From Verrucomicrobiota bacterium (GTDB lineage: Bacteria; Verrucomicrobiota; Kiritimatiellia; RFP12; UBA1067): a DNA stretch of 37,434 nucleotides. Shown piece after piece: positions 3,195 to 29,236 of the stretch (positions are counted from its first letter, which is position 1; each line of letters begins with the position of its first letter). The notes below the pieces were generated by a model, which did not search any database, was not told the origin of the DNA, and was given only the letters and a program-made list of their open reading frames with translations. The stretch lies in contig JAEEZC010000162.1 in the NCBI GenBank assembly GCA_016288465.1, forward strand, positions 1 through 37,434, written 5' to 3'. The position numbers were made by a program, and so were the translations under genes.

Positions 3195-3316
3195 TTGACT
3201 CCCTTTCCTTATTGTCAACGCTTACCCTCCATACGTGTTCAACGAGTGAATCGAAAATCGCGTTGGGTCGAAAATGCGAAGGCAGCAGGCTAGGACCCGC
3301 CGGCGCAGCCGCGAAG

Positions 3317-3345
3317 TTGCCCTTTTCCGCCGCGTGTGCTATACT
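3317..3345 (+). promoter_or_regulatory. promoter of the XylR-type regulator, at the start codon
   Basis: -35 TTGCCC (3317-3322), 17-base spacer, -10 TATACT (3340-3345) preceded by TGC (extended -10). The ATG is at 3352, only 6 bases after the -10, so the expected transcription start coincides with the start codon. No Shine-Dalgarno sequence is present. Confidence 0.6.
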
Positions 3346-3351
3346 TCCAGC

Positions 3352-4542
3352 ATGAAAAGGGCGTTACGAATAGCGGTACAAGTGGAAACCAACCGAGCGC
3401 ACGGGCGGGCCCTGCTTGAGGGGATCGCCGACTACGCGCTCGCACACACGGACTGGCGGCTCGAACCCGTTGAGCCTGGCCTGCTCACCGACCCTTCGCG
3501 CGCAGGCGGCTTCGACGGCCTCATCGTGCGCGTGATGGACGACACGACCGCCGACGCGCTCGTCGCCGCCAAGCGTCCGACTGTCGACGTATACGGACGG
3601 CTGGACAAAAGCCCTATTCCATACATCCGCCTTGACGACGACGCCATCGGCGCATGCGCCGCTCGCTGCTTCGCCGAGCACCGATACTCGCGCTGCGCCT
3701 ACTGCGGATTCTCCGGGCTGCGGTTCTCGGACGCCCGAGGAGAGTCCTTCGCCCGCAACATCGCGCTCGGCGGCGGAACCTGCACGACCTACGACGGAGG
3801 GCTTGCCCGTCTAAAGGAGACGTTCGTCCGGGAGGAGCGAATGGACCGCATAATGGACGATGAGAGCCTCCGCAGCTGGCTCCGCGCGCTGCCCAAGCCC
3901 GTTGCCGTGTTCTGCTGCAACGACATAAGGGCGTTCCAGCTGCTGAAGGCGTGCTCAGACGAGAGAATCGAAGTGCCGCAAGAAGTGGCCGTGCTGGGCG
4001 TCGACAACGACCGCGTGCTGTGCACCTTCGCAAATCCGCCTCTTTCCAGCATCGAGACGAACCCCTTCTCGCTGGGCATGCGCGCCGCAGAAATGCTTAA
4101 CGCGCAGATCTCGTCGCCGGACGAACAGCCTCCCATGGCAGTCCTCCACGCGCCGCGCCGCGTCGTCGAACGGACGTCCACGGAGTTCTATCCGACGAAG
4201 ACGCCCTGGCTTTCCGACGCGCTCGTGTACATTAGGCGCAATCTGGGCAAGGGCGTCTCGGCTGCGGACGTCACGGCCCATATTGGCTATTCGCACACGA
4301 CGGTCGGCAAGGTCTTCAAGGAGGAGCTCGGCACAAGCGTCCAGCAGGTGATCATTCGTCTGCGCCGTGAAATGGCATGCAGACTGCTCAAGGAGACGAA
4401 GCGCACGGCCGCCGACATTGCGGCGGACTGCGGATACCCGTCTGCGCAGTACTTCGCGCACCAGTTCTCGGCGCACTTCGGGACGACGCCGGACGTCTGG
4501 CGCAAGCGCGCCCGTCAGACGGACGCCGCAAAGCCGACGTAG
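3352..4542 (+). CDS. XylR-type regulator (LacI-like sugar-binding domain plus AraC HTH)
   Basis: A 396-residue cytoplasmic transcription factor. Residues 1 to about 275 form a periplasmic-binding-protein-like sugar domain: IAVQVETNRAHGRALLEGIADY at the start, GLIVRV, the 'YIRLDDDAIG' strand, VAVFCCNDIRAF and VAVLGVDNDRVLCTFANPPLSSIE. The last about 100 residues are an AraC-family double HTH, with the signature TAADIAADCGYPSAQYFAHQ followed by F...FG.TP..WR. This is the E. coli XylR layout, where the N-terminal domain senses a sugar and the AraC domain activates catabolic genes. Start at 3352 rather than the longer in-frame ATG at 3274, because a good promoter ends at 3345. Its 3' end overlaps the convergent glycosyltransferase gene by 28 bases. 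Which genes it controls cannot be seen. Confidence 0.88.
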   Translation: MKRALRIAVQVETNRAHGRALLEGIADYALAHTDWRLEPVEPGLLTDPSRAGGFDGLIVRVMDDTTADALVAAKRPTVDVYGRLDKSPIPYIRLDDDAIGACAARCFAEHRYSRCAYCGFSGLRFSDARGESFARNIALGGGTCTTYDGGLARLKETFVREERMDRIMDDESLRSWLRALPKPVAVFCCNDIRAFQLLKACSDERIEVPQEVAVLGVDNDRVLCTFANPPLSSIETNPFSLGMRAAEMLNAQISSPDEQPPMAVLHAPRRVVERTSTEFYPTKTPWLSDALVYIRRNLGKGVSAADVTAHIGYSHTTVGKVFKEELGTSVQQVIIRLRREMACRLLKETKRTAADIAADCGYPSAQYFAHQFSAHFGTTPDVWRKRARQTDAAKPT

Positions 4543-6625: not shown

Positions 6626-8211
6626 CGGCCCTTGCCAGAGACCGGCTTCAGACCCGCCGGAGGCGTCAGCGCCGGATCGGAGTAGGGCGCGGAGCGATCC
6701 ATGCGGGCAAACGACACATAGCTCGGCACACCCCAGCCAGTGCCGTCTGCGCGGCCGAAGACCGCGATGTCCACACGGTTGACGGGCGACATGCGGGTGC
6801 GGTCGATCGTGACGCGCGCGGCGTCCGCGCCGACAGGCTCTATCCTGACGTCCACGTCGGCGCCGTGCGTCTTCACGAAACGGTACTCCGCGGCCCCTGT
6901 CGCCCGTATCGTGAACACGCGCTTCACGTCGTCGGACCGCAGCACATAGGCCCACGCACAGCTGGAGCGGTACGTGAGCTCGGGCAGAGGAGGCGCTTCC
7001 TGAGGGGGCTGCACCTCAACCGTGATCGGCACGATCGGCGGAATCGCCGAGACCTGCAGCTCGGCGGCCGCCTTCATGAGCCTGTTGGTGTCCACGCCGT
7101 CCCTGGGCATCGCCGTCGGATGCGCGCGGACGGACGTGTACTCGTCCTCCGACGAAACGCCGCGCAGGCTCTTTCGCAGAAGCGTCATGATCGTCGGAGC
7201 GAGAAGGCCCCGCCTGACGGCCTCGCGCTTCACTTCCTTTCGAAGTGAGGCCGACGCCAGAAGGGACGCCCTAAGGTACGGCAGGTCGGACCAGCTGCGG
7301 CCAGCGGTCGTAAGCCAGTACGGCGCGATGGACGCGAACACGTCGCCGTTCGTCCCCACAGGCGGAGTGTCGGCGTTCGACGGGAACACCCACACCTGGT
7401 TCGAAAGGTACAGCCGCTCCATCGCCTTGAGCCTGTTCACCTCCGTCGTGAGAATCGCCCTCGGTATCGAACGCCAGAACGGCTTCTGCACAAACGCCAT
7501 CGACGAATTGCCGAACGTGGGGTACGGGAATATCACGTTAGGCACGTTAAGGTCGAGTCCGCGGCCCTGGCCGTCCGGATCGAACTTCACCTCCGTTATC
7601 CCCGGAAACTCCGACAGGAACTTCTTCTTCGCCTCGGGCCCCTTCGGCGAGTGGCCGCCGTCGCGGTTCATGTAGAGATCGCCCGTCCAGCGATCCGCGC
7701 CGCCTTCGGCGAGCTTCAGCCTCGCAATGAAGCAGCCGACATCGAAGTCCCACATGAGATTCTGCTCGCCGAGCGCCACGACGGAGCCGAATACGCCAGT
7801 CGCGTCGACAGTGGAAAGAGGACCGGATATCATCGGCCGCGGCCGCATGTACTTCGCGTACTCCACGAGCTCCTTGAAGCGCTTCTCGGAGGACAGCCGC
7901 TTGAGGTCGGTGTCGGCCGCTATCGCCTCGGGATTTCTGAAGCCGAGGTCTATCGCGAGCTCCAGCTCGTCCAGGGCCTCGTTCTTCCTCTTCGGAAAGT
8001 ACGCAAGCGCGCAGGCGAGGTTGAAATGCCACGTCGGATCGTCCGGCAGAAGCTTGACGCCGCTGCGGCATATGGCCTCCATGTCGGCGGTCTTCCCGCG
8101 TCTCACGGCAAGGACGAACTGATCGCGCAGCCGCTCGTGCTGCGGCTGACGCGCGGGATAGTCCCAAATGGAAAGGACCGCCAGTATCGCTGCAAACAGA
8201 TTCATTGTCAT
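6622..8211 (-). CDS. secreted TPR-like protein of unknown function
   Basis: About 529 residues from the ATG at 8211 (ATGA overlap with the upstream coiled-coil gene), or 527 from the ATG at 8205. The second has better spacing from GAGG and may be the true start. MNLFAAILAVLSI is a short hydrophobic leader. Residues about 45-110 look like a TPR pair: DPTWHFNLACALAYFPKRKN, ALDELELAIDLGFRNPEAI, then KRFKELVEYAKYMRP. The middle (about 120-390) is rich in WDFDVGCF, DLYMNRDGGHS, VIFPYPTFGNSSMAF and QVWVFPSNADTPPVGTNGD and matches no family I can name. The C-terminal 100 residues alternate beta strands (VFTIRATGAAEYRFVKTHG, RVDIAVFGRADGTGWGVPSY), perhaps a sandwich domain. Its neighbours, two GYF_2-type proteins, suggest a shared assembly. 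Confidence 0.7.
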   Translation of the reverse strand: MTMNLFAAILAVLSIWDYPARQPQHERLRDQFVLAVRRGKTADMEAICRSGVKLLPDDPTWHFNLACALAYFPKRKNEALDELELAIDLGFRNPEAIAADTDLKRLSSEKRFKELVEYAKYMRPRPMISGPLSTVDATGVFGSVVALGEQNLMWDFDVGCFIARLKLAEGGADRWTGDLYMNRDGGHSPKGPEAKKKFLSEFPGITEVKFDPDGQGRGLDLNVPNVIFPYPTFGNSSMAFVQKPFWRSIPRAILTTEVNRLKAMERLYLSNQVWVFPSNADTPPVGTNGDVFASIAPYWLTTAGRSWSDLPYLRASLLASASLRKEVKREAVRRGLLAPTIMTLLRKSLRGVSSEDEYTSVRAHPTAMPRDGVDTNRLMKAAAELQVSAIPPIVPITVEVQPPQEAPPLPELTYRSSCAWAYVLRSDDVKRVFTIRATGAAEYRFVKTHGADVDVRIEPVGADAARVTIDRTRMSPVNRVDIAVFGRADGTGWGVPSYVSFARMDRSAPYSDPALTPPAGLKPVSGKGR

Positions 8212-9821
8212 CGCCTCAGCTTCATCCAACTCGGCAGCTTGACCATCTTGGCCTCGCGGCTCTGGTTCGTCTCCATCGAAGACACAGTGCCGATCGACGG
8301 AGACTCGAGCGACGCAAGCCGCGCCATGAGCGCCTGCTTGCCCATCGCCTCCCGCTGGCGGAGCTCCTCGCTGCGCTGGCGCTCCGACAGAAGGTCCTTC
8401 TCGGCGCGCTGCAGCGCCTCGCGAAGCCTCTCGGCCTCCGCGCGAAGCTGCGTCACGTCCCTCATGCTCTCGCCGAGGCGAAGGCACTCGGCGCGGCTTT
8501 CGCGCACCTGGTCGGAGAGCTGGCGCATTCTGGCGTCGTTGTCGAGCATGGCCTTCTCGTGCACGCGCTGGAGCTCCTCGTAGTCCCGCCTCAGTCTCGT
8601 GGTGCGCGGGTCCTCCGGCCTTTCGACAAGAGCCCTTCTCGTCATGTCCTCGAGGTCTCGTCCGCTCATCTTGAGTATGCCGCGGCGGCACTCCTGCAGA
8701 TAAGCCTCCCGCACCTGATAGCGCTTGCGGCACTCGTCGAACTCGGCCTTCTCGCGCTCCAGCGTCGCCGCTATCACCGCGGCTTCGTCCTGCATGATCT
8801 TGAAGACCGCGGCCTGGATGTCTGCGACCTCGCTCGCCGCCGCAGGAAGCCTCTTCAGCTCGTCCTCCAGCGCCACGACCTGCTCGGAGAGCTTCGCCGA
8901 CCTCGCCTCCGCATCCTTGAGCGCCGCGTCGCGTTCGGCGATTATCCCGTCCTTTTCGGCCGACTCCGCCGTCCTGACCTTGAGCTCCGCGTCGCGCTCG
9001 GCCACAAGACGCTCCTTTTCGGCCAGCTCCGCCTTCTTCGCCTCGATCTCCGCGTCTCTCTCGGCGATAATCCGGTCCTTCCCCGCGAGCTCGGCGACCC
9101 GGGACCTAAGCTCGGCGTCGCGCTCGGCAAGAGTCCTTTCCCTGTCGGCGATCTCGGCCGTCTTGGCCTTCAGCTCCGCGTCGGACTCGTAGAACAGCTT
9201 CTCGTTCTCTGCGGCCTCCGCCTCCTTGGCCTTCAGCTGCGCATCGCGCTCGACAAGCGTCGCCTTCAGCGCGGACGCCGTCTTCATCGCGTCGTCCATT
9301 CGCTGCTGCAGATCGACCGTATGCCGCCGCTCCTCCTCGAGAAGGCCCTCCAGCTCCTTTACGCGCGTATCGTCCACGACGACCTTCTCCACGACGCGCA
9401 CCTCCGGCTTCTCGGCGGCATCCGGCCTTTTCTCTTCGTCTTTCCCTTTGTCTTCCTTCTTGTCGTCGGAAGGCTGCGGCCCCTCCGCCTTCACGGGCGC
9501 TTCGGGCGTCTCCGGCTCAGGCGGCTCAAAAGGAGGGCGCACCTCCACCAGGCTAGCCGTCTTCGGCAGCCGCCCGCTCGCAAGAAGAGCGTCCGCGGCC
9601 GCCTTGTTGAACGGACCGCGTGGATTGCCGTCGCCTATGTCGATCGAGAAGCGCATGTCGAGAAACGGGACCTCCTCGACACGCGTCCAGACGACGTTGT
9701 CGTCCGACACCTCCTGCCCCGGCTGCACGCGGCCGAGCTTCGCCCACTCGACGAGCTTCGCCTCGGTCTCGGGGCCGAATGTCTCGTCCTGCGTCCGCAA
9801 ATACCACTTAGCTTCGCCCAT
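8208..9821 (-). CDS. GYF_2-type protein with long coiled coil and 21-residue repeats
   Basis: A 537-residue protein. Residues 1-95 hold two GYF_2-like units: KWYLRTQDETFGPETEAKL-VEWAKLGRVQPGQEVS-W, then GDGNPRGPFNKAAADALLAS. GYF_2 domains bind proline-rich peptides or serve as bacterial scaffolds. Residues 95-140 are a charged, proline- and lysine-rich linker. Residues about 145-500 are almost unbroken coiled coil. Within it, ERDAELK-type starts recur at residues 191, 212, 233, 254, 275 and 296, an exact 21-residue (three-heptad) spacing. A short region around 325-345 breaks the helix pattern. There is no signal peptide or membrane helix, so it should be cytoplasmic. The ATG overlaps the TGA of the gene before it (TGATG). 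Function unknown; a structural or scaffold role is inference. Confidence 0.78.
   Translation of the reverse strand: MGEAKWYLRTQDETFGPETEAKLVEWAKLGRVQPGQEVSDDNVVWTRVEEVPFLDMRFSIDIGDGNPRGPFNKAAADALLASGRLPKTASLVEVRPPFEPPEPETPEAPVKAEGPQPSDDKKEDKGKDEEKRPDAAEKPEVRVVEKVVVDDTRVKELEGLLEEERRHTVDLQQRMDDAMKTASALKATLVERDAQLKAKEAEAAENEKLFYESDAELKAKTAEIADRERTLAERDAELRSRVAELAGKDRIIAERDAEIEAKKAELAEKERLVAERDAELKVRTAESAEKDGIIAERDAALKDAEARSAKLSEQVVALEDELKRLPAAASEVADIQAAVFKIMQDEAAVIAATLEREKAEFDECRKRYQVREAYLQECRRGILKMSGRDLEDMTRRALVERPEDPRTTRLRRDYEELQRVHEKAMLDNDARMRQLSDQVRESRAECLRLGESMRDVTQLRAEAERLREALQRAEKDLLSERQRSEELRQREAMGKQALMARLASLESPSIGTVSSMETNQSREAKMVKLPSWMKLRR
8916..9251 (-). repeat. six tandem 63-bp coding repeats (21-residue coiled-coil unit)
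   Basis: Codons for residues 191-302 of the coiled-coil protein contain six copies of a unit starting ERDAxLK or ESDAELK, with exactly 63-base spacing. The DNA shows matching recurrent GCG-TCG-CGC-TCG segments on the plus strand. This indicates growth by in-frame duplication. Confidence 0.75.
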
Positions 9822-10537
9822 CAGTGTTTCCTCCCGAAGAGACTGCCGACAAGACCGAACCGACGACGTTTCGCAAGCTCCTGCTGGGCAGCGGCCTCAA
9901 GGGCCATCAGCCTGGCGCGGTTGAGGCCGGCGAATATCCCGCCGGGCATCTTCGCAAGGGGCCGACGAGCCGCCGGCGCGAGCACCTCCGGCACTACGGC
10001 CAGGGCGGACTGGGCCCGCGGACGCGGCGCAGGGACCTCCACCACCTTCTCGACGACCCGCTCCACGACCTTCTCGACCGGCACCTCGACGCGGACTTCT
10101 TTCTCGACCACCCGCTCAACCACCTTCTCTACAGGCACTTCGACGATCTTCTCGACGACCCGCTCGACCGGCACCTCTACGCGGACCTCCTTCTCGACCA
10201 CCCGCTCGACGACCTTCGGCGGCGGATCCTCGTCCACAGGCAGCTCGTGCAGGGAATAGACCTTTGCGTCAGGCGACGCCGACCCGTCCTTGAAAAGGCG
10301 TATCACGAACGCGCGGTTGAACGGACCGAAGACGCGGCCGGGCTCCGGCTCGACGAGCCACTTCATCTCGAGCTCGGGCATGGCCGGCGCCGGAAACCAC
10401 TTGACGCGATCGCGGGAAAGCGAGCTTGTGGGCTGGATGCGGCCCTCCTTGGCCCATTCGGCAAGGGATGCAACGCAAGCCGGACCGTAGACGTTGCCGT
10501 CCTCGGCCTTCACATACCATTCGGCGCTTTCTCTCAT
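9821..10537 (-). CDS. GYF_2-type protein with Val/Glu/Pro repeat region
   Basis: A 238-residue protein with no signal peptide. Residues 1-95 repeat the architecture of the next gene's N terminus: AEWYVKAEDGNVYGPACVAS-LAEWAKEGRIQP, then GRVFGPFNRAFVIRLF, i.e. two GYF_2-like units. Residues about 105-172 consist of alternating valine, glutamate, lysine/arginine and proline (KVVERVVEKEVRVEVPVE at 108-125, repeated at 138-155). This should be an extended rod or a partner-binding strand. The tail is basic and ends RRRFGLVGSLFGRKH. The coiled-coil protein next door carries a single echo of the repeat (RVVEKVVVD), suggesting common origin. The ATG at 10537 lies 8 bases after a -10 box, so it is probably the leaderless first gene of the five-gene chain. 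Function unknown. Confidence 0.75.
   Translation of the reverse strand: MRESAEWYVKAEDGNVYGPACVASLAEWAKEGRIQPTSSLSRDRVKWFPAPAMPELEMKWLVEPEPGRVFGPFNRAFVIRLFKDGSASPDAKVYSLHELPVDEDPPPKVVERVVEKEVRVEVPVERVVEKIVEVPVEKVVERVVEKEVRVEVPVEKVVERVVEKVVEVPAPRPRAQSALAVVPEVLAPAARRPLAKMPGGIFAGLNRARLMALEAAAQQELAKRRRFGLVGSLFGRKH
10073..10216 (-). repeat. 90-bp tandem coding repeat (VVERVVEKEVRVEVPVE unit)
   Basis: Codons at 10163-10216 and 10073-10126 encode the same 18 residues, 30 codons apart, with only synonymous differences apparent at the DNA level. Shorter partial copies fill the space between them. Confidence 0.7.
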
Positions 10538-10545
10538 CACCCTCT

Positions 10546-10575
10546 ATTATACCAAAACGGAGGCCGTCTCGTCAG
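10546..10575 (-). promoter_or_regulatory. promoter of the GYF/TPR/dus chain, inside the RND stop codon region
   Basis: -35 CTGACG (10575-10570), 18-base spacer, extended -10 TGG-TATAAT (10554-10546). The last three sense codons and TAA stop of the RND gene lie within or beside the box (the TAA is 10549-10547). The ATG of the GYF_2 gene follows 8 bases after the -10, leaving essentially no leader. Confidence 0.6.
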
Positions 10576-13501
10576 CCTTTCCCGGACGCCGCCCGCGCAG
10601 AAGGGACGCCAGCAGCCCGCCGAACAGCGCGTATCCCAGATACCCTCCGCAAAGCGCAATGCCAAGCGACCGGCTGCCCGCCGCGCCGGCGCCAGTCGCA
10701 AACGCGAGCGGCAGCGCGGTAAGCGCCGCAAGCAGCGGCAGAAGCGCCCTGGCGCGCGCCCCGGAGCCGCGGACCGGCAGCAGCGACATCGCCGTCGTCG
10801 TAGCGAGAAGCATCACGATCGCGTAGCGCGAATACACCGAAAGCGCCGCGCCCGTAACGCCAAGGGCCAGAAGCGCGCCCAGCACCGCCGTCACCGACGG
10901 CAGAAACGAGCGGAACGCGTTGCGCCAGCTCTCGCGGTACGCCACAAGCACCAGGTAGACGAAAAGGACCGCGAGCACAACCAGCCAGTTCTCCCCGCCG
11001 CTCGTCTTGAGCGACTCGTACGTAAAGCCCGCCCAGTCGTTGCGGAAGCCAGGCGAAAGCTTCTCCCGGCAGATTCTGACGACCTCGGCGACCGCCTCCG
11101 ACGTGGAGACGCCGGGCTTCGGAATGAACTGCTCCGTGCAGTAGAGGTACTGGTCGCAGCGGTAGCACGAGCGCGGCCCAAGCTCCTCCCGGCAGGTGAC
11201 GAGCGTGTCGATCGGCACCATCGCGCCGGTCTTCGACCTGACGTAAAGCCCGCGTATGTCGTCCGGCTTCGCGCGCCCGCTCCACTCGGACATCGCCGTG
11301 ACCCGGTTCACCTGCGTGCCGAGGTTGACGTCGTTGACGTATATCGAGCCCAGATTGTGCTGCAGCGCTGTGTATATGCTTGACATCGGCACCTTCATCA
11401 GCTCGCACTTAGCACGGTCCACCGAGACCCTCAGATGCGGCGTGTCGGTGTAGAACCCGCCCGTCACCGACTCCGCAAGGGGCGACTTCGCAAGCTCCCC
11501 GCGCATCCGAAGCACTTCGCGCGAGAACTTGACCGGGTCGTTGTCGCCGATCGACTGGAACAGCACGCACACTCCGCCCTGCGAGCCCATGCCCTTCACC
11601 GGCGGAATCCTCAGCACGAACAGCTCCGCCTCAGGGATGTCCGCCGCGATCTTCTGGATGCGCTTGCCGATCTCGTACGACGACTCGCCCGCGCCGCGCT
11701 CGCTCCAGTCCTTCAGCACGAGCAGCATCTTCGCCTGGTTCTCGCCGGAGCCGTTGATTATGCTCGTGCCGAGCAGCGTCGCGCACTTCTCGATGCCGCC
11801 AAGCGCGCGCGCCTCGCGGTAGACGCGCTTCATCACTTCGCTCGTGACCTCCATGGACGTGCCTTCGGCCGTCTTGCAGTCTACGTACAGAACGCCCATG
11901 TCCTCGTCCGGCACGAACTCCTGCGGAAGCCGCCCGGCAAGTACGTACGAAACGACAATGCAGAACGCCCCCAGCACCATCGCAACCAGAAAACCTGGTA
12001 AGGCGCCGAAGAAAGGACGATCCGATCTCGCGGTCTCGGGCTCCGCGGCGGGAAACAGCCTCTTCGCCGCGACCGGGACAAGAAGGAGCGAGCAGAACAC
12101 GGACGAGACGGCCATCGCCGCGAACACCGCCGAGAACTGACGGAACAGCACGCCCTGCACGCCTCCGCCGAACGCAAGAGGCAGCGCCGCGAACGCGACT
12201 GCCGCGCCGGCGGCAATCTGCTCAACGCCCGGCAGCCTTCCCCTGCGCACTGCCGCGATAGACCAGGCGGCCGTGCCTGCCGCAAACGCGACGGACGCAA
12301 GAAGCGCATAAAGCGCCAGAAGATTCGCCTGCATCCCGGCGACCAGCAGCGCCGTCGCCGCTATAAGCGTCGCGACAAGCGCGGACGCCGTCGAAAGGAG
12401 CGCCGCCTTGAGCGACCTGAACACGAGCAGAATCGCCGCGAACACGGTCAGCAGCGCTATGGCAAGCGCCATTGCGACGCCTCTCAGCGTCCTCACCATG
12501 TACTCCGTCGTGTCGTACGTCATGTCCCACGTCAGGTCCGCCGGAAAGTACGGCTCGAGCTTCTTCAGCTCGCTCTTCACCTCCGCCATCGCCTCAAGCG
12601 GATTCGCGCCCGGCAGAAGGTAGATGGAGATGTACACGGCCGGAGTCTCCTCGTAGAGGGACGAGTAGGAGAAGCCCTGCGGACCCTTCGCGATTCTCGC
12701 GACGTCCTTGAGGCGGACGAGTCCGCCGTCGGCGTCAGTCGCGACGATGATCTCGCCGAACTCCTCCGGCGACGAAAGGCGGCCCCTGGATATCAGCGAG
12801 ATGACGCGGGCCGTCGGGTCTTCGGAAGGCCGCGCGCCGACGGAGCCGAGCGACGCCTGCACGTTCTGCGCCTTGATCGCCGCGACGACGTCCTCCGTGT
12901 TCAGCCCGAGCGCCGCAAGGCGCTCCGGCTTCATCCACACGCGAACCGCGATCTTGTCGTCCTGCACCGTCGACTTGCCCACGCCGCCGACGCGCAGAAT
13001 CGCGGGGTTGACGACGCCGAACACGTAGTCGGCGACCTGGTCGTGCGTCAGCTTGCCTCCCGGCGAGCGAAGCGTCAGTATGCCGAGCTCCTCCGTCGTG
13101 CCGCTCTCGACCGTGACGCCGGTGTTCTTCACCTCCTGCGGCAGCAGGGACTGCGCCTGCTGCACCTTGCTCTGCACCTTCATCAGCGCGAGGTCGCGGT
13201 CGTAGCCCACCTCGAAGTTGACCGTCAGCGAGTACGCTCCGGAGTCGTAGCAGCTGCTCGTCATTCGGTCCATGCCCTCGACGCCGTTGACCTTCTCCTC
13301 TATCGGCCCCGCGACCGTGTTCATCACCTCCGCCGCGCTCGCGCCCGGATACGAGCACGACACCGATATCGCCGGCCTCGCGAGAGTCGGATAGAGCGCC
13401 ACCGGCAGGAACGGCACCGATATGGCGCCTACAAGCGTCGCCACAAGGGCGATTACCGCGGCAAGGCGCGGACGCGCCACAAGAAATTCCGTCGCTTTCA
13501 C
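10547..13501 (-). CDS. RND-family (HAE1/AcrB-like) permease lacking proton-relay residues
   Basis: 984 residues from a GTG start at 13501, which overlaps the adaptor stop (GTGA). Family members are usually 1020-1050 residues. N-terminal landmarks are clear: LPVALYPTLARPAISVSCSY, PGASAAEVMNTVAGPIEEKV, LPQEVKNTGVTVE, VWMKPERLAALGL, and the porter/docking segments LPQEFVPDEDMGVLYVD and GSIYVNDVNLGTQVNRV. The membrane halves are abnormal. Where AcrB has the helix-4 motif with Asp407-Asp408 (VVDDAIVVVEN), this protein reads AAGTAAWSIAA at about residues 407-417. Where AcrB has Lys940 (GLSAKNAIL), it reads ATTTAMSLL. The helix 10-11 connection is also shortened. These residues are required for proton-driven export in AcrB, so transport by the standard mechanism is doubtful. 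No TolC-like gene is present in the window. Confidence 0.9.
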   Translation of the reverse strand: MKATEFLVARPRLAAVIALVATLVGAISVPFLPVALYPTLARPAISVSCSYPGASAAEVMNTVAGPIEEKVNGVEGMDRMTSSCYDSGAYSLTVNFEVGYDRDLALMKVQSKVQQAQSLLPQEVKNTGVTVESGTTEELGILTLRSPGGKLTHDQVADYVFGVVNPAILRVGGVGKSTVQDDKIAVRVWMKPERLAALGLNTEDVVAAIKAQNVQASLGSVGARPSEDPTARVISLISRGRLSSPEEFGEIIVATDADGGLVRLKDVARIAKGPQGFSYSSLYEETPAVYISIYLLPGANPLEAMAEVKSELKKLEPYFPADLTWDMTYDTTEYMVRTLRGVAMALAIALLTVFAAILLVFRSLKAALLSTASALVATLIAATALLVAGMQANLLALYALLASVAFAAGTAAWSIAAVRRGRLPGVEQIAAGAAVAFAALPLAFGGGVQGVLFRQFSAVFAAMAVSSVFCSLLLVPVAAKRLFPAAEPETARSDRPFFGALPGFLVAMVLGAFCIVVSYVLAGRLPQEFVPDEDMGVLYVDCKTAEGTSMEVTSEVMKRVYREARALGGIEKCATLLGTSIINGSGENQAKMLLVLKDWSERGAGESSYEIGKRIQKIAADIPEAELFVLRIPPVKGMGSQGGVCVLFQSIGDNDPVKFSREVLRMRGELAKSPLAESVTGGFYTDTPHLRVSVDRAKCELMKVPMSSIYTALQHNLGSIYVNDVNLGTQVNRVTAMSEWSGRAKPDDIRGLYVRSKTGAMVPIDTLVTCREELGPRSCYRCDQYLYCTEQFIPKPGVSTSEAVAEVVRICREKLSPGFRNDWAGFTYESLKTSGGENWLVVLAVLFVYLVLVAYRESWRNAFRSFLPSVTAVLGALLALGVTGAALSVYSRYAIVMLLATTTAMSLLPVRGSGARARALLPLLAALTALPLAFATGAGAAGSRSLGIALCGGYLGYALFGGLLASLLRGRRPGKADETASVLV

Positions 13502-14706
13502 GGCGAGACGACCTTGACGGCCGCGCCGTCCTTGAGCTTGAACGCACCGAGCCCGACAATCTTGTCTCCGTCGGCAAGGCCCGCGGATATCCGGGAGACG
13601 CCGTTCCACTCCCCGTCAGTCTCGACGGCGACCGGATGCGCCCTGCCTTCGGCGTCGACCTTCCACGCCTGCAGCCCTTCGTCGGTCCGCACAAGCGCCG
13701 CGGTCGGCACCACGAGCGCGGCCGGCGGGTTGCGCTCGTCGGAGAGCACGCGCACGAACGCGTTCGGCACGAGACGGCCTGCCGGATTGTCGAAGCTGAC
13801 GTGCATCTTCAGCGTCGCCGTCTCGCGGCTCATCTCGTTGTCGCCGAAGTCTATCACGCCCTCGCAGCCGTACACCGTCCCGTCGGGAAGCCTCAGCCGC
13901 AGACGGCGCGAGTCCTTGAGCTCGCGGCCGCCCCGCTCCGCCGCCGCCTGCCATGCGTCGTAGTCGCGGTCGCTTATCGGGAAGACCACGCGGATCGGAT
14001 CCGTCTGCACGACGCGCGCAAGGGCGCTCTTGGACGGCGACACGTAGTCGCCGACGTGGTGCAGCGCCTTGCCTATGCGACCGGAGATCGGCGAGTAGAC
14101 CTTCGTGTGCTTGAGGTTGAAGTCGGCGATCGCCGCGGACGCCTTGGCCTGCTCGACCGCCGCGTTCGCCGCGTTGAGCGCGGCCTTGGCCGAGGCCAGC
14201 GTCGTCTCGGCCGTGTCGCGCTCGGTCGCCGTCACGCCGCGCTCGTCTGCGGACGAAAGGCGCTTGAAGTAGCGTTCGGCGCGGTCCACCTCGGAAAGCG
14301 TCACTGTGACCTTCGCCTCCGCGCTGGCGACCTCGGAGTACCGCAGGTTCCTGGCCGCGACATACTGCTCGTCGTCAATCTCGAAGAGGAGGTCGCCCTT
14401 CTCGACCTTCGCGCCCTCTGTGAAGCAGACGCGGCGGATGTACCCGTCGATCTGCGGCAGGATGTCCGTGACCTGCGCGGGCTCGACGTGGCCGACGTAC
14501 TCGGCCGGCGGATTGAACGCCGCGTTCGTCACCGAGACAAGCGTCACGGCCGGCGCCTCTGGAGCGCGCTCCTCCGAAGGCTTCGCCCTGAAGCCAACAG
14601 CGTCTCTCGCAAACCACCCTATCCCAACAAGCGCCGCCGCGACGACAAGCGCCGCACATCTGCCGGCGAAACGGACAGGCCCTCCCTGCATATTAGAACT
14701 AACCAT
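13498..14706 (-). CDS. periplasmic adaptor (membrane fusion) protein, AcrA family
   Basis: A 402-residue protein. A single N-terminal membrane anchor (about residues 14-33, AALVVAAALVGIGWFA) is followed by the usual order: beta-barrel/lipoyl half VTLVSVTNAAFNPPAEYVGH and GYIRRVCFTEGAKVEKGDLL-FEID, an alpha-hairpin (about 120-195, rich in Ala/Glu/Lys), second lipoyl half KHTKVYSPISGRIGKALHHV-GDYVS, then VQTDPIRVVFPISDRDY and a C-terminal membrane-proximal domain ending LGAFKLKDGAAVKVVSP. It links the RND protein to an outer-membrane channel and sets opening of the complex. The start at 14706 is taken because a -10 box ends 7 bases before it; a further in-frame ATG lies 5 codons later. It overlaps the RND start by 4 bases. 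Confidence 0.9.
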   Translation of the reverse strand: MVSSNMQGGPVRFAGRCAALVVAAALVGIGWFARDAVGFRAKPSEERAPEAPAVTLVSVTNAAFNPPAEYVGHVEPAQVTDILPQIDGYIRRVCFTEGAKVEKGDLLFEIDDEQYVAARNLRYSEVASAEAKVTVTLSEVDRAERYFKRLSSADERGVTATERDTAETTLASAKAALNAANAAVEQAKASAAIADFNLKHTKVYSPISGRIGKALHHVGDYVSPSKSALARVVQTDPIRVVFPISDRDYDAWQAAAERGGRELKDSRRLRLRLPDGTVYGCEGVIDFGDNEMSRETATLKMHVSFDNPAGRLVPNAFVRVLSDERNPPAALVVPTAALVRTDEGLQAWKVDAEGRAHPVAVETDGEWNGVSRISAGLADGDKIVGLGAFKLKDGAAVKVVSP

Positions 14707-14713
14707 GCCGCAT

Positions 14714-14722
14714 ATTTTACCA
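14714..14722 (-). promoter_or_regulatory. extended -10 element for the adaptor/RND pair
   Basis: The minus strand reads TGG-TAAAAT. The adaptor ATG (14706) comes 7 bases after its last base, so the transcript should start at or next to the start codon. No good -35 hexamer is seen at the normal distance. Confidence 0.45.
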
Positions 14723-14807
14723 AATCCTGCGCGCGGAGTGTAGTAGTGTCTAGACAGGTCTTTGAGACAAAGGGCCCTCGAAAGCTCAGCCGTCCCCTTG
14801 AACTTAA

Positions 14808-14840
14808 CCCCTCCATAAATATATAGAGACACGTCTTTCT
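14808..14840. repeat. dispersed repeat, copy 1
   Basis: Contains CCATAAATATATAGAGACA followed by CGTCTTTCT. It matches copy 2 at 15043-15074 in the same orientation with one difference over the 28 bases from CCAT to TTCT. The AGACAYGTCT core is palindromic or nearly so. Confidence 0.75.
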
Positions 14841-19830: not shown

Positions 19831-21330
19831 TTATCCGCGAAGCGGACGATACACCGGAGCGAGAGCGTCGTGTATGCGGCGGTAGCAGCTGAAAAGACGC
19901 TCGTACTCTGCGGCCTGCCGCGGATCGGGCTCGACCGTCCGGTCGACGCGAAGGCACTTGGCCACGGCGTCCTTGACGTCCGAGAAGACTCCGGTGCCGA
20001 CACCTGCCAGCAGGCATGCGCCGAAACTGGCGTCGCCAGGCACCGGCACCGCGACAGGACGGTTGAACACGTTGGCGACAATGCCGCTCCAGACCCTCGA
20101 CCTAGCGCCTCCGCCGATGAGGAATATCCGGTTCACGGGCAGACGCATCTCCTCAAGAGTGCGATAGCAGTCCCGAAGCGAAAAGGCAACGCCCTCCATC
20201 AGCGCGCGGCAGAAGTCAGCCCGCGTGGAGGCGATCGAGACGCCTGTGAACGAGGCGCGAAGGCTGGAATCCCAGTACGGGCATCTCTCGCCCTGCAGAT
20301 ACGGATGGAAGAAGGCGCCCCTTGCGCCGACAGGCGAGGACGCCGCCTCGTCGTCGATTCTCGCATAAAGGCCGCGTCCGTCTCCTGCGGACGCGATGTC
20401 GGAGAAGAACGTGTCCCTCAGCCACCTCATGCAGAGCGCGGCGGCGTTCGTAGCCGAGACGGAATACCACATGCCAGGCACGATGTGCGAATAAGTAAGC
20501 GTCTTCGGATGGGGATGCGCAGCGGACGTCATGGAGTTGACGTTGCCGGCGGTCGCGAGCTTGAGAATGAGGTCACCGGGTTCGACTGCGCCCGCGCCAT
20601 AGTCCTCGACGGCGCTGTCGGAAGACCCGCAGACCACTGGCATTCCCGCAGGCAGGCCCGTGAACGCGGCGGCTTCAGGCGTCACGCGTCCGGCGATGTC
20701 GGTCGGCTCGATGAAAGCAGGCAGCTTCTCCAGCGTCAGTCCGGCAAGCTCGACAAGCTCGGGCGACCAGTCGCAGGCCTTCATGTCGTAGAAAAGCGTC
20801 CCCTGCGCCTCTATGCGGTCCGTCGCGGCCTCGCCGGTCAACAGGTACCGGACGTAGTCCTTGACGAAGAGCACATGCCTCGTCTTCGCGAACGTCTCAG
20901 GTTCGTTTGCCTTGAGCCACATCATCTGCGGCAGCGTCCAGGTCGGCGCGGGCATCTGGTAGCAGGTCGAGAATATCTTCTCACCCCAGCCAGCCCTAAG
21001 CGCGTCGCACTCGGCGGTCGAACGCTGGTCGGTCCACATTATCGTGCGTCGGACCGGGCGGAACTCCGCATCAAGAAGAACGGCGTTGTGCGTCGAACCG
21101 TCAAGCGCGCAGGCGACGACCTGCGAGAGATCGACTCCCTTTGCGGAAAGGCTGGAGAGAGACGACTTCAGCGCGTTCCACCAGTCCTGCGGCTCCTGCT
21201 CGCTCCAGCCTGGATGGTCGTGGTGGGTCGGAAACTCCGTTGACGCCTCTCCGACGAACGAGCCGTCCTCTCCGATTGCGGTCACCTTGCAGCCGCCGGT
21301 TCCGTAGTCAATGCCAAGCAGAATCTTCAT
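19831..21330 (-). CDS. FGGY-family carbohydrate kinase (xylulokinase-like)
   Basis: A 499-residue sugar kinase that phosphorylates a ketose or polyol with ATP. The N-terminal nucleotide fold opens MKILLGIDYGTGGCKVTAIG. Family landmarks are WSEQEPQDWWNALKSSL, VVACALDGSTHNAVLLD, RRTIMWTDQRS, LFVKDYVRYLLTGE, GSSDSAVEDYGAGAVEPGD (with the expected catalytic aspartate region), the LATAGNVN phosphate loop and IFLIGGGARSRVWSGIVANV near the C terminus. Closest subgroup by motif is XylB; D-xylulose or a related ketose is the likely substrate. ATG at 21330 follows GAGGA and lies 43 bases after the GH2 stop, so they share a transcript. It probably phosphorylates a sugar released or isomerised by neighbouring enzymes. 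Confidence 0.88.
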   Translation of the reverse strand: MKILLGIDYGTGGCKVTAIGEDGSFVGEASTEFPTHHDHPGWSEQEPQDWWNALKSSLSSLSAKGVDLSQVVACALDGSTHNAVLLDAEFRPVRRTIMWTDQRSTAECDALRAGWGEKIFSTCYQMPAPTWTLPQMMWLKANEPETFAKTRHVLFVKDYVRYLLTGEAATDRIEAQGTLFYDMKACDWSPELVELAGLTLEKLPAFIEPTDIAGRVTPEAAAFTGLPAGMPVVCGSSDSAVEDYGAGAVEPGDLILKLATAGNVNSMTSAAHPHPKTLTYSHIVPGMWYSVSATNAAALCMRWLRDTFFSDIASAGDGRGLYARIDDEAASSPVGARGAFFHPYLQGERCPYWDSSLRASFTGVSIASTRADFCRALMEGVAFSLRDCYRTLEEMRLPVNRIFLIGGGARSRVWSGIVANVFNRPVAVPVPGDASFGACLLAGVGTGVFSDVKDAVAKCLRVDRTVEPDPRQAAEYERLFSCYRRIHDALAPVYRPLRG

Positions 21331-21373
21331 GTCGAGTCCTCAATAATAAAACAAGTTTCAGACGACGGCCGGC

Positions 21374-23905
21374 CTATTTGCCCGCATGCACTGCGATGCT
21401 TGCGGAGGCCATGGGCAGGCCTTCGGACAACGCCTTCACCGTGATCGTTCCGGACGAGCCGGGGACGGCGCGGACTATCGCCTGCGCCAGGCCGTTGAAG
21501 GTGACACGGTTCGGCGAATGGAAGTCGCCGAAGTCGGTTTCGTCGCCATTGTCCGTCGCGACAATCGTGCCGGGCCCCTCTATCTCGAAGCTCACGGGGA
21601 TCTTCGCGTCCGGCACGGTCAAGCCCGCTTCGTCACATACGCTGAGAGTCACAAAGCAGACGTCCTCGCCATCAGCCATGATCGAATAAGTCTCAGGCTC
21701 AAGGACGAGACATGCGGCGGCGCCGGTCGTACGGACGGTGTCATGCGCCCATTCAACGCCGTTTCTGAAGGCGACGACCTTCAGCTCGCCCGGCTCGTAG
21801 CGCACATCGTCCCAGCGAAGGCGGTAGGCGCGGTCCCAGACTCCGGGAAGCTTGCGCTGACGCCCGAGCGAGCGTCCGTTCAGGAACAGCTCGGCTTCGT
21901 CGCCAGAGGTGAACACGTAGACGGGAGTAACCTCCCCTTCACGTCCCTTCCAGTTCCAGTGCGGCAGTATGTGCGCCATCGGCAGGTCGGGACGCCAGCG
22001 TGCCTGAAAGAGGTAGAAGACGTCCTTCCTGAAGCCGGCCTGATCGAGGAAGCCCGTGTTGCAAGTGTGGATTGCGGCGCGCGTCCTGCCTCTGGCCTTC
22101 ACCTCGGCAAGGGCCTCTGCCTGCTTCGCGGGGTCGCTGAACTTCGGCGTCTTGCGCCAGTCCTCGCACCAGAACGGACCGCCGAGATAGTCGATGCCCG
22201 TCCAGACGAACTCGCCCATGCAAGTGCCGACCTTGTCCATCCAGTACCACTGCGCATCGGGCGAGCAGGCCCACCTCGTGTCCAGCCGAGTCCAGCCCAC
22301 GGCCTCCCAGCAGTAGGACGAGTTGTACGAGTCCTTCAAGGCGACCTTTGGGTTCGCCCAAGTCTGAAGGACCGGAAATCTGTACTCGCCGCGCGTCGAG
22401 CTCATGCACACGGTCTCGGTGCCGAAGAACGGGACGTCGGGATACTTCTTCGCAAGAGCGGGATACTGCCACGGATAGTAGTTGCAGCCCATCAAGGACA
22501 TTACAGTCGGGAAGTCGTTCGTGTAGTTCGCGGCGTTGTTGTTCGCCGTGACGGTCGGCCTTGTCGGGTCCTCCTCGGCGACCGAACGGGCAAGCGACCG
22601 CGCTATCGCGGAGAACTCGGAAAGCGGCGCGATCTTCGCGAAGCCCTCGCATATCTCGTTGCCAACCGAGTACATGATGACGCACGGATGGTTGCGGTCG
22701 GTGCGCACCCACGCGCGCAGATCGCGCTCGTGCCACGTGTCGAAGAGGTTTGTGTAGCCGTTCTTGCGCTTGCCAGACGCGCCCGCCTTGCGCCATTCGT
22801 CAAACACCTCGTCCTTGACCAGCATGCCAAGCTCGTCGCAGAGCTCGAGGAGTCCCTCGTCCGGCGGATTGTGGGAAGAGCGCACGGCGTTCACGCCGGC
22901 CTCCTTGAAGAGCAGCAGCCTGCGGCGCTGCGCCGCACGGTTCCAGGCCGCGCCGAGCACGCCGAAGTCATGGTGCATCGAGACTCCGTTCAGGGGCACC
23001 GTGCGTCCGTTGAGCTGGAAGCGACGCTCGTCCGAGCTGAACGAGCTGGTGCGAATGCCGTACTTGTACGCGTCGCCCTCGACGTCGACCGTGTAGAGAT
23101 ACGGGTCGTCGACATCCCAGAGACGAGGGTTCTCGACGAAGAACACGCGCTCCTTCGCGCCTCCAAGGGACATCTCGTAACGAACGCGCACCTTGGCCCG
23201 CTTCGCAGTAACCTCCGGAGTCGTTATGAAGACGCTGCCGGGCACGACATGGTCTTCAGGGCAGACCAGAAGCCTGCAGTCGCGATAGAGTCCGCCGCCG
23301 GTATACCAGCGGGACGAGTTCTTGACGTTGTGGCAACGTATGGCGATTACGTTTTCGCCATTGAGGTTGAGATGGTCCGTGAGGTCAATGCGCCAGCGAG
23401 TGTAGCCGTATGGCCAGCCGCCGAGGAACTTGCCGTTAAGATAGAGCATCGCATAGCTCATCGCGCCGTCGCACTCGAACAGCACGCGGCCCTTCTGAGG
23501 CACGGCGACGGACCTGCCGCCGGACGTCAGCCTGCCGCCGGAAGCCTTGAGCGCAAGCCTGTACCAGCCGACTCCGGTGACGTCGAGGAAAGCGTCGTAG
23601 AAAGGGAGCGTGCAGTCGAACGTCTTTTCAACGCCCCAGTCATGGGGAACGCGCACCTGCTTCCACGACGAGTCGTCGAAGCCGGCCTCCGCCCAGCCAA
23701 ACGACGGAGCGCCGGACGTGTCGCCGCGGTCGGCGCGGTCGAGAATCGCGCTCATCGCCTGAAGCGTGAGGTTTGTGCCTGCAGACGGATCATCGGCCTT
23801 GACGAAGCGCCACCCTTCCTTCAGCGCCAGCTTCTCGGTGGCGCCCAACGCGGCCGACGCGCAAAGGGCGACAGCCGAACAACATGTCATCAGTCTAGTG
23901 TTCAT
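21374..23905 (-). CDS. secreted GH2 family glycosidase
   Basis: An 843-residue enzyme with a signal peptide (MTCCSAVALCASAALG near the start), then sugar-binding domain (GWRFVKADDPS, WKQVRVPHDWGVEKTF, FDCTLPFYDAFLDVTGVGWY), immunoglobulin-like linker (ENPRLWDVDDPYLYTVDV) and a TIM barrel. Barrel motifs are typical of GH2: NGVSMHHDFGVLGAAWNR, AGVNAVRSSHNPPDEGLLEL, then DRNHPCVIMYSVGNEICEG with the acid/base glutamate near residue 417, and FFGTETVCMSS with the nucleophile glutamate near residue 497. The C-terminal part has two beta-sandwich domains. Activity could be beta-galactosidase, beta-glucuronidase or similar. Start at ATG 23905 (AAGG upstream) after a leader of about 40 bases. It precedes the FGGY kinase. 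Confidence 0.92.
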   Translation of the reverse strand: MNTRLMTCCSAVALCASAALGATEKLALKEGWRFVKADDPSAGTNLTLQAMSAILDRADRGDTSGAPSFGWAEAGFDDSSWKQVRVPHDWGVEKTFDCTLPFYDAFLDVTGVGWYRLALKASGGRLTSGGRSVAVPQKGRVLFECDGAMSYAMLYLNGKFLGGWPYGYTRWRIDLTDHLNLNGENVIAIRCHNVKNSSRWYTGGGLYRDCRLLVCPEDHVVPGSVFITTPEVTAKRAKVRVRYEMSLGGAKERVFFVENPRLWDVDDPYLYTVDVEGDAYKYGIRTSSFSSDERRFQLNGRTVPLNGVSMHHDFGVLGAAWNRAAQRRRLLLFKEAGVNAVRSSHNPPDEGLLELCDELGMLVKDEVFDEWRKAGASGKRKNGYTNLFDTWHERDLRAWVRTDRNHPCVIMYSVGNEICEGFAKIAPLSEFSAIARSLARSVAEEDPTRPTVTANNNAANYTNDFPTVMSLMGCNYYPWQYPALAKKYPDVPFFGTETVCMSSTRGEYRFPVLQTWANPKVALKDSYNSSYCWEAVGWTRLDTRWACSPDAQWYWMDKVGTCMGEFVWTGIDYLGGPFWCEDWRKTPKFSDPAKQAEALAEVKARGRTRAAIHTCNTGFLDQAGFRKDVFYLFQARWRPDLPMAHILPHWNWKGREGEVTPVYVFTSGDEAELFLNGRSLGRQRKLPGVWDRAYRLRWDDVRYEPGELKVVAFRNGVEWAHDTVRTTGAAACLVLEPETYSIMADGEDVCFVTLSVCDEAGLTVPDAKIPVSFEIEGPGTIVATDNGDETDFGDFHSPNRVTFNGLAQAIVRAVPGSSGTITVKALSEGLPMASASIAVHAGK

Positions 23906-23952
23906 ATTTGCCTTGTGCATAATAGAGCCCGCGCTCTGATGTCTCGTCCGCC

Positions 23953-23961
23953 ATTATAGCA
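23953..23961 (-). promoter_or_regulatory. extended -10 element for the GH2-kinase operon
   Basis: The minus strand reads TGC-TATAAT. Start codon of the GH2 gene follows about 50 bases later. No convincing -35 at normal spacing. It lies 60 bases after the clan GH-A stop, so transcription may both start here and read through. Confidence 0.5.
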
Positions 23962-24022
23962 CAACGCTGACGAGAACTAGGCCAAAAAGAATGAAAAGTC
24001 ATGAGAGGAACTGAGACGGCGT

Positions 24023-26710: not shown

Positions 26711-26713
26711 TCT

Positions 26714-29188
26714 TTAGCGAACTAGAATCATCATGCCGTTCCCGATCCTGCCGAGGAACTTGTCGGGAGTGAGGACGCCCTTGGAGACGCGCACTGCGTC
26801 GAACTTGCCGACGATGTTCGGATGGGTGTTGGAGCCTTCGCCAAGCATAAGGCGGTGGCCGGCAACGCGCTTCGGCAGACGGAAGCCCAGCGTGGCGCCA
26901 TTCATGCTCTGGCCGCCGTACTTGACGTTCTTGTAGTCGTAGAAGAGCTTGACCAGCGTGTTCGTGCCTTCGTTGGCGGGCTCGAACGTGATTGCGTAGT
27001 GATGCCACCTGCCGTCAACAACCAGTTTATTCGACGGAATGGCCCAACCAGGATATTGACCTCCGATCGACATCTGGATGGCGCCTGCATTGTCTTTCAG
27101 TCTGTAGACGTACCAGTCGTAATCGGAACTTTCCATCTGAGAGAGGCGTATGATCGGGACATGGTGGGCAAGGCTCGTCGAGCCTGCGTCAACAGGACCG
27201 TTGCCATCGACAATGCCGTCGAACTTCGCCCAGAACTCGACCGTGTAGGAGTCCTGCTCGAACAACGGGATGCCGGGGGCAACGACGCGGCTTGCGTTCA
27301 GGCTGACCGAATACGCGTTGGCGACGACCTTCGTGCCGTTCGTGCCGTCAAGAATCAGCTTGCCGCGAGACTCGTTCACGAACGTCGGCGCATTGCCGCT
27401 CGTGCGGGCTTCGCCGATGCCTCCAACGGTGAGCGCATCGTTTTCCGGGGAAACGAAATCGTAGTTCTGCTCGAAGAGAGCGATCATCGAGGTGTCGCCA
27501 GTGCCGACAGGATGCGTGGTAAGAAACTCGTCGGGCGTCAGCGCGCGCCGCGTTACGCGGATGTCGTCCATCCAACCGTCAAAACACTGCGTTCCACCAT
27601 CTCTCGCGCCGAAGAAGAGGGATTTTCCGGTTGAGACATCGACGAGAGAGCCGGTTCTTGACTTAGCTAGCACATAGTCAAAATAGAACTTCACGGTTCC
27701 TGCCGTGCCATCGACAACGACAGCGACATGGTGCCACTTGCCGTCGTCCGCGTTTGATGATGCAGTATCGTAATGCGTCACCCCGTCCGTATTGCTCACA
27801 TAGAGCATTTTCGAGCTGATCGCGTCGAAAAGCACATTGAAATACCCGTCCCCGCCGAACTTCATCAGAACCTGGCGGTTGTCCGTCGTGCCGCGCACCG
27901 TCTTCCGCGTCTTGTAGAACATTTCAGTGGTGTAGCTCGCCGCCGCCCCGTCATTTCCACGGATCAACTTCGAGATGTATGGCATCTGGACGTAGTTGGC
28001 CTTGCCGACATCATTCGTTTCCTGATAGAACGACGCGACGTCATCGATCCAGAAATCCGTTTCGGATTTGGCGGCCATGATGGCACCGGCTTTCGTCTCG
28101 GTGTCATAGACGGACGATCCCGCACCGGAAACCTTCCTGAACACCGCAATATCCTGGCAGTTCGGTCGAAGCGCGTCGCCGATATCCGCATAGTCTCTTT
28201 TCAGCAGCACCCTGTATTCGTCGGGCGTAAAAGAAACGCGCGCGATTTCGTCCGGATCCATGTCCAATGGCTGCATCCGCAGGAACTGGTCGGGAGTGAG
28301 CACTGCATCTGAGACACGCACCTCGTCGATCAACCCGGGATACTTGCGGCCACCATTGTTGGCGTCGCCATAGGCGTAGCCACCGATCCAGGTGGCGTTG
28401 TCGTTGGAATAGGCGAGAATGGTTCCTGTCTTGCTATGAACACGGTCGGAATCATCGGAGGACTTCTTGTCAAGGACGTAATCAACGTATATGCGTACTC
28501 TCTCGCCATCGTAAGTGAATGCCACGTGGTGCCAGGCGCCGTCGTTCACCTTGTACTTGCCGCCAGCGCCGTTCCCGCTGTACCAGACGTCAGTCGATTT
28601 ATCTGCCGTCAAGCGCACGGCAACTGTACCGTTGTTTTCCATGTAAATCGCGAAACGCTCGGATGTCCAGCTCGCTCCGTCGACGCTGCCGACGATGGGG
28701 GCGAAGGTATTGTAAACGCCGCCGGTGGTGCAGACGAAAGCCTCGACTGTGAGGGCACTCTTCTCATAGAGCGGCTGGTAGAGATCGTAGCCGCCATCGA
28801 ACTTGAGGCCGCCGCCAAAGCGTGCGCGTCCGTTATTTGAGTCCGGAGTGGATCCGCCGCGATCAACGCGGAATTTCATCGCGGCACTGTTGGTGCGCGT
28901 GATGCCGGAAACCGGATCGTAGACGGCGAGTCCGTGGAATGGCTTGGTGTATGTCGGCAGATAGTCGCCACCGTTCTCAACAGTGGTTGACATGGCATTA
29001 GCGGTGCCGATTGTATACACATGGGCGTACGTCGTCGGCGCCTGGTCGCTCGCAACGGTGTTCGCGGGGGCGGTCGTGCCGGGTTCGCACTCGTCGAAGT
29101 GCCACCAGGCTATGGTATTGGCATGGGCAGACGCCAACGCAGCGAAAGACAACGCCATCGCTGAACTGTAACCGATGAACTTGCTCAT
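26714..29188 (-). CDS. secreted protein with three LamG-like domains
   Basis: An 824-residue protein with signal peptide (MALSFAALASAHA) and three concanavalin/LamG-type units at about residues 125-305, 400-555 and 600-812. Each has the central 'DGxWHH.A..xDG' strand (about 219, 485, 728) and each ends in the same exit motif: DEVRVSDAVLTPDQFL, DDIRVTRRALTPDEFL and DAVRVSKGVLTPDKFL. LamG units bind glycans and adhere to polymers. No catalytic site, cell-wall anchor or C-terminal sorting signal is visible. Start at ATG 29188 with AAGGAAAGGA upstream; a promoter element lies at 29237-29245. The next gene, a clan GH-A glycosidase, starts 3 bases after its stop, which suggests this protein captures the substrate of that enzyme. 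Confidence 0.9.
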   Translation of the reverse strand: MSKFIGYSSAMALSFAALASAHANTIAWWHFDECEPGTTAPANTVASDQAPTTYAHVYTIGTANAMSTTVENGGDYLPTYTKPFHGLAVYDPVSGITRTNSAAMKFRVDRGGSTPDSNNGRARFGGGLKFDGGYDLYQPLYEKSALTVEAFVCTTGGVYNTFAPIVGSVDGASWTSERFAIYMENNGTVAVRLTADKSTDVWYSGNGAGGKYKVNDGAWHHVAFTYDGERVRIYVDYVLDKKSSDDSDRVHSKTGTILAYSNDNATWIGGYAYGDANNGGRKYPGLIDEVRVSDAVLTPDQFLRMQPLDMDPDEIARVSFTPDEYRVLLKRDYADIGDALRPNCQDIAVFRKVSGAGSSVYDTETKAGAIMAAKSETDFWIDDVASFYQETNDVGKANYVQMPYISKLIRGNDGAAASYTTEMFYKTRKTVRGTTDNRQVLMKFGGDGYFNVLFDAISSKMLYVSNTDGVTHYDTASSNADDGKWHHVAVVVDGTAGTVKFYFDYVLAKSRTGSLVDVSTGKSLFFGARDGGTQCFDGWMDDIRVTRRALTPDEFLTTHPVGTGDTSMIALFEQNYDFVSPENDALTVGGIGEARTSGNAPTFVNESRGKLILDGTNGTKVVANAYSVSLNASRVVAPGIPLFEQDSYTVEFWAKFDGIVDGNGPVDAGSTSLAHHVPIIRLSQMESSDYDWYVYRLKDNAGAIQMSIGGQYPGWAIPSNKLVVDGRWHHYAITFEPANEGTNTLVKLFYDYKNVKYGGQSMNGATLGFRLPKRVAGHRLMLGEGSNTHPNIVGKFDAVRVSKGVLTPDKFLGRIGNGMMILVR

Positions 29189-29236
29189 ATGCGAATCCTT
29201 TCCTTGATGTACGGGAGGAACATCCTTTACACCCAT

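Follow-up and report, generated by a model that had tools for sequence, protein, structure and literature searches.

An AcrB-fold RND family of Kiritimatiellae without the proton-relay residues

The window, i.e., the whole stretch of 37,434 nucleotides that was analysed, encodes an RND protein that retains the AcrB fold, with its 12 membrane helices and two large periplasmic loops, and carries none of the residues found at D407, D408 and K940 of the AcrB proton relay. Judged from sequence, it is an RND-superfamily protein that we do not class among the HAE1 pumps. We tentatively suggest, with somewhat less than even confidence, that the AcrB-fold family to which it belongs, of at least 134 members, builds a stable trans-envelope complex together with its own adaptor and a TolC-type channel, one that is unpowered and does not act as a proton-driven pump. 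Such a clade would separate the role of the porter and docking parts from that of the proton engine, and lets one ask, in a natural setting, whether a tripartite complex is useful when it does not pump. The titles and abstract openings of open-licence PMC papers yielded no description of a natural relay-less HAE1 clade.

Relay columns, membrane helices and family assignment

The intact RND reading frame comprises 984 codons, running from a GTG start at 13501 to a stop at 10547 (Table 1), and its product (P0001) aligns with AcrB of E. coli K-12 over residues 5 to 955. The earlier note had read Gly-Thr in place of the helix-4 Asp-Asp pair (within AAGTAAWSIAA, residues about 407–417) and ATTTAMSLL in the helix-10 lysine region; both segments are present, with G409 and T410 at the columns of D407 and D408 and A904 at that of K940, and T978 is replaced by L921. 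G914 aligns with R971, a column that depends on the alignment, one of which puts Arg there in most relay-less rows and two of which have mostly Gly, Ser, Thr or Pro. Arg918, well conserved (R in 94/121) near the start of helix 11 and about one turn from the aligned R971 position, might be a stand-in for R971. The change is not a private mutation, as D, E and K are absent from columns 407, 408 and 940 in the window protein and in all 120 homologs listed (49–97% identity), and a second search, from a distant member, gave 134 of 134 aligned homologs without them (one gap at 940), divided into three subfamilies of 50, 45 and 39. The two protein searches covered the best 120 of 4246 and the best 120 of 2263 matches, so that relay-less homologs number at least 134; 101 of the 121 proteins of the first set were used in alignment A1. 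Two distant sequences, L088 (two frames and a masked stretch) and L093 (22% identity), also have no full D-D-K set and were excluded from the family counts. Changes at D407, D408, K940 or R971 are reviewed as abolishing export by AcrB (PMC8277102). Partial relays are apparently tolerated, because many AcrB-like members keep one acid only and the helix 10 base is not absolutely essential, according to the review PMC5719797; the total absence of acids exceeds the one-acid relay reduction reviewed there.

Table 1. Coordinates of the RND gene, its adaptor gene and features of the relay-less protein in the window
Feature	Position	Strand	Basis or remark
Relay-less RND (AcrB-fold) protein, 984 aa	10547..13501	minus	intact ORF
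Membrane-fusion (adaptor) protein gene	13498..14832	minus	overlaps RND start
PN1 subdomain (about 41–136), axis helix and exit-gate residues	13094..13381	minus	mean pairwise identity 0.82, most conserved subdomain of the clade
E138 (AcrB F136), pocket residue	13088..13090	minus	Glu or Asp in all of the 121-protein set
Q180 (AcrB F178), pocket residue	12962..12964	minus	K, Q or R in 96% of the 121-protein set
Helix 4, residues 394–419, G409-T410 replacing Asp407-Asp408	12245..12322	minus	alignment to AcrB
Helix 6–7 linker, residues 483–501, amphipathic helix missing	11999..12055	minus	AcrB description and model of relay-bearing relative
C779-x2-C782-x5-C788, periplasmic strands	11138..11167	minus	Cys in 71%, 67% and 68% of 134
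Helix 10, residues 889–907, A904 replacing Lys940	10781..10837	minus	alignment to AcrB
Helix 11, residues 915–933, after shortened 10–11 linker	10703..10759	minus	

A relay retained in a shifted register, with which the conserved Arg918 near the R971 column would be compatible, is hardly credible and was rejected, since the alignment shows no conserved acid in the helix cores (helices trimmed by four residues at each end). Among the 121 proteins no acid is conserved at any position in any core; the cores hold no acid in 93 proteins, one in 26 and two in 2, at scattered positions, and the core of helix 10 holds only one stray Glu and three His. The conserved ionizable residues of the helices are mostly basic and located at or near helix ends, with Arg454, Arg944 and Arg918 conserved near such ends. 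The earlier note would have given up the relay loss for acids and a lysine at shifted positions or for orthologs with the full relay; no such residues are conserved, so the loss stands, and no ortholog with the full relay occurs among those examined.

Three cytoplasmic elements are reduced: the helix 10–11 linker, whose shortening the earlier note had correctly pointed out, and also the helix 4–5 linker together with the amphipathic helix connecting helices 6 and 7, which it had not mentioned. It had likewise said nothing of the pocket changes described below or of how far the relay loss extends through the family. The mean gap fraction over the helix 4–5, 6–7 and 10–11 stretches of AcrB is 0.88, 0.43 and 0.66 in relay-less proteins (n=134) versus 0.08, 0.01 and 0.00 in relay-bearing Kiritimatiellae (n=36). 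The 6–7 amphipathic helix, described for AcrB (PMC5719797), is predicted in the model of a relay-bearing relative and is absent from that of the window protein. A locked O-like state, read from the structure matches of this one-chain model, was dropped; the model of a relay-bearing control ranks much the same PDB chains, so that no locked state can be argued from the structure model.

With 547.3 bits against PF00873 (ACR_tran; cut-off 28), the protein falls in the RND superfamily, whereas its score against the HAE1 model TIGR00915 is 574.6 and lies below the cut-off of 940.35, as do those of P0060 (561.5) and P0119 (532.9); C74, a paralog in the same genome, passes with 979.0. The MdtB and MdtC models give 229.1 and 212.5 against cut-offs of 1584 and 1774. 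Because the protein falls short of the TIGR00915 cut-off and the D407/D408/K940 relay of HAE1 pumps occurs in 0 of 134 homologs, it was not filed as an HAE1 pump. It resembles AcrB/HAE1 permeases (TIGR00915, PF00873) in its fold, 12 helices, porter and docking domains, axis helix and adaptor partner, and differs from them in having no D407, D408, K940, T978 or, in two of three alignments, R971, in its shortened 4–5, 6–7 and 10–11 cytoplasmic parts and in the replacement of the pocket phenylalanines. Automatic names such as 'multidrug efflux pump subunit AcrB', carried by the relay-less member P0027, can mislead on function.

Constraint, periplasmic sites and spread

Conservation and phylogeny were assessed on 68 distinct sequences of more than 880 residues, including 10 relay-less ones (the window's among them) and 36 from relay-bearing Kiritimatiellae, two of which (L003 and L021) end before K940. 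In none of 45 relay-less pairs (drawn from 10 distinct sequences) does the membrane half exceed the periplasmic half in conservation, whereas it does so in 620 of 630 relay-bearing pairs (36 sequences), where the first membrane block is the more conserved in 608/630 and the second in 628/630. In six relay-less pairs dN/dS is 0.02–0.14 for the periplasmic part, 0.10–0.41 for the membrane block and 0.06–0.18 for the whole gene, and in seven relay-bearing pairs it is 0.02–0.26 and 0.00–0.24 for the two parts, values that are rough because several dS are near or above 1. On these comparisons, constraint is inverted relative to relay-bearing pumps, the periplasmic part bearing most of it, and the gene is evidently maintained. 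The earlier note had called the gene intact and unlike a decaying one, which agrees with the open frame and the low whole-gene dN/dS. Decay into a pseudogene is very improbable: the membrane half is relaxed and one carrier, G060 (the record of L043), has the gene in two frames, but the carriers other than G060 have no stop inside the match, the family has at least 134 members in three subfamilies, and the periplasmic dN/dS excludes decay; this explanation was rejected, as the purifying selection seen in all six whole-gene comparisons contradicts it.

Within subdomain limits (PN1, DN, DC) that we assumed when placing them on the protein, PN1 (0.82) and DC (0.74) are the most conserved subdomains of the relay-less clade, compared with 0.68 each in relay-bearing relatives, and the pore helix (0.81 v 0.73) and the hairpin (0.75 v 0.68) follow the same direction; DN is no higher (0.64 v 0.66). 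At the exit gate, N126 and Y721 are found in all 121 proteins and T127 in 99%. The drug-pocket phenylalanines of AcrB, taken from what we presume to be its pocket sites, are replaced by charged or polar residues in the relay-less set: besides the F136 and F178 columns (Table 1), Glu predominates at the F615 column (83%), most of the remainder being Thr or Asp, and the F610 column has Thr, Ala, Val or Cys in nearly all of the 121 proteins. Relay-bearing Kiritimatiellae also lack several pocket phenylalanines, mostly with replacements other than those of the relay-less clade, and by this comparison the rewriting of the pocket in part predates the clade. As a set, the pocket sites are about equally conserved in the two groups (0.51 relay-less, 0.48 relay-bearing); with the pocket only slightly higher and DN at 0.64 v 0.66, a specific ligand is not indicated. 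The periplasmic cysteines C779, C782 and C788 could form a disulfide or a metal site; the first two occur in 0 of 41 relay-bearing rows (duplicates included).

The 10 distinct relay-less sequences (11 leaves, the window being entered twice) form one clade with a support of 1.0 and a stem of 0.79, and share a 20-leaf clade (support 0.996) with nine relay-bearing pumps of the C74 type. These nine group together with a support of only 0.207, so that no exact sister is named; on this tree the relay-less clade is monophyletic among relay-bearing Kiritimatiellae pumps. Among the loci compared, proteins of at least 49% identity have no relay in the covered columns, complete Kiritimatiellae proteins of about 36–43% have it, and no intermediate was seen. 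The gene is carried by 10 of 61 genomes of the genus (one open frame giving two matches in G012, and the split gene of G060 counted) and by at least 11 of the 345 in the class, a minimum because scoring was limited to the two best first-look candidates per genome; the additional carrier, G266, belongs to another genus of the same family. The closest named relatives by protein, among the matches listed, come from goat ileum (75%) and water-deer rectum (71%) and are recorded as Kiritimatiellae bacterium; further relatives come from goat omasum, yak caecum and horse faeces. Although 2242 plasmid records had a match, none held 80% of the query in one place.

Genomic context and possible role

The stop codon of the adaptor gene overlaps the RND start codon, and the adaptor scores 207.2 bits against TIGR01730 (cut-off 94.9) and also matches HlyD_D23, in line with the coupled AcrA-like partner reported in the earlier note. 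As in HAE1 systems, an adaptor adjoins the RND gene in 8 of the 9 loci with upstream sequence (the window and 7 of 8 relatives; L039 and L041 have no upstream sequence and are left out). The exception, L040, has at 8000–9311 another coding frame, which does not match the adaptor and ends just before the RND gene, and by eye we take this frame to resemble a glycoside hydrolase. No neighbour besides the adaptor recurs beside the relay-less RND gene in more than two of the loci compared, and sharing of genes outside the pair is limited to two loci at a time. The window contig (C212 of a 3.52 Mb genome, 82.6% complete) holds one PF00873 protein only. On other contigs of the same genome lie two paralogs, C74 (42% identity, full relay) and C203 (39% identity, D407 and D408 present; G000:C203:4869-7670, also L003, with a TAG inside the match near the contig end and the contig ending before K940). 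Both resemble the relay-less pair in having an adjoining adaptor gene, with tip regions similar to that of the window adaptor, and differ from it in their relay residues and in the conserved membrane half of their group. One TolC-type channel gene was found, on another contig.

Slightly more tentative than the complex itself is the suggestion that a natural clade has lost the engine and kept the outer machine, which would leave an RND complex uncoupled from protons, serving either as a passive conduit with a gate or as a permanent strut from the inner membrane to a TolC-type channel. The relay-less RND protein would form a trimer and, like relay mutants of AcrB and MtrD, dock on adaptor and channel. 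The complex would stay docked, as dissociation presumably requires proton flux; its conserved centre, with axis helix and exit gate, might then act as a gate or strut, either closing off the channel or allowing a single polar ligand to move down its gradient. The analogy comes from MtrCDE, where binding to MtrC survives relay mutation of MtrD, and where, by the authors' inference, the mutant complex fails to come apart and keeps the MtrE channel sealed (PMC3664412); a stable unpowered complex is proposed here because the mutant protein stays bound, and a passive conduit needs an extra assumption because the inactive pump seals the channel in that work. Laboratory relay mutants (AcrB D407A; MtrD D405K/D406K/K948E) likewise have the relay residues gone with assembly reported as preserved, but are engineered, whereas the relay-less clade is natural and has inverted constraint. 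Counted for the unpowered complex are the relay loss, the acid-free cores, the inverted constraint, the conserved exit gate, the adaptor and the TolC-type gene, and against it the missing adaptor of L040 and the DN values. Of the three options raised by the earlier note, a non-transporting scaffold, here widened to a scaffold or unpowered conduit, fits best.

The main rival, unlikely as it seems, is that the protein joins a relay-bearing paralog of the C203 or C74 type in a heterotrimer, in which it would be the subunit lacking the relay and tasks would be shared as between MdtB and MdtC. The trimer hairpin and axis helix are conserved, other RND genes including the full-relay C74 are present in the genome, and MdtBC provides a precedent for unequal relay needs within a trimer, relay mutation being more damaging in MdtB than in MdtC (PMC4338810). 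Against this, both RND genes lie in one operon in the MdtBC system as reviewed (PMC8277102), whereas here a single RND gene is accompanied by its own adaptor, which alone recurs beside it in more than two loci, and one relay-dead unit is reported to inactivate a whole linked AcrB trimer (PMC4403515). All 10 carriers in the genus have a second RND match of about 36–42% identity (fragmented in G013 and G029, where the pieces fall short of the cut-off used in the genus co-occurrence count, and with the relay read in fetched sequences only), but paralogs are common anyway, 34 of 51 non-carriers matching at E<=1e-150, and co-occurrence with a C203-like paralog was set aside as uninformative. The second RND subunit that the earlier note had considered thus has candidates elsewhere in the genome and none adjoining the gene.

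Improbable in our judgement is a regulatory role as a decoy, in which the protein would tie up the adaptor or the TolC-type channel and thereby limit other pumps: the docking surfaces are kept with the relay lost, relay-mutant complexes are inferred not to dissociate (PMC3664412) and a single channel gene was found in the incomplete genome, yet there is no obvious reason for a decoy to have its own adaptor or to conserve the exit gate, and the gene is patchy in the class. Still less probable is an active transporter driven by another ion or a partner protein. The 12 helices and the arginines near helix ends would suit it, and VexF is cited as sodium dependent (review PMC10924465), but the membrane cores offer no conserved acid for cation binding, which also weakens the earlier note's option of a pump driven another way, and the membrane half is the faster-evolving part.

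Downstream of the RND gene, two minus-strand ORFs (8208-10540) each carry an N-terminal GYF_2 domain scoring just above the cut-off, with no recurrence seen beside RND genes in the relatives' loci. A carbohydrate-use cluster on the minus strand (19831-35718) includes an FGGY kinase, GH2, GH30, a KduI-type isomerase, an MFS transporter, a triple Laminin_G_3 protein and an AraC-type regulator with a sugar-binding-protein-like domain, and within it an 895-residue ORF (24023-26710, minus) has no Pfam match. Two related AraC-type regulators with Peripla_BP_3 domains are encoded at 3274-4542 (plus) and 29308-30471 (minus), and a gene similar to these regulators adjoins the relay-less RND gene of L057.
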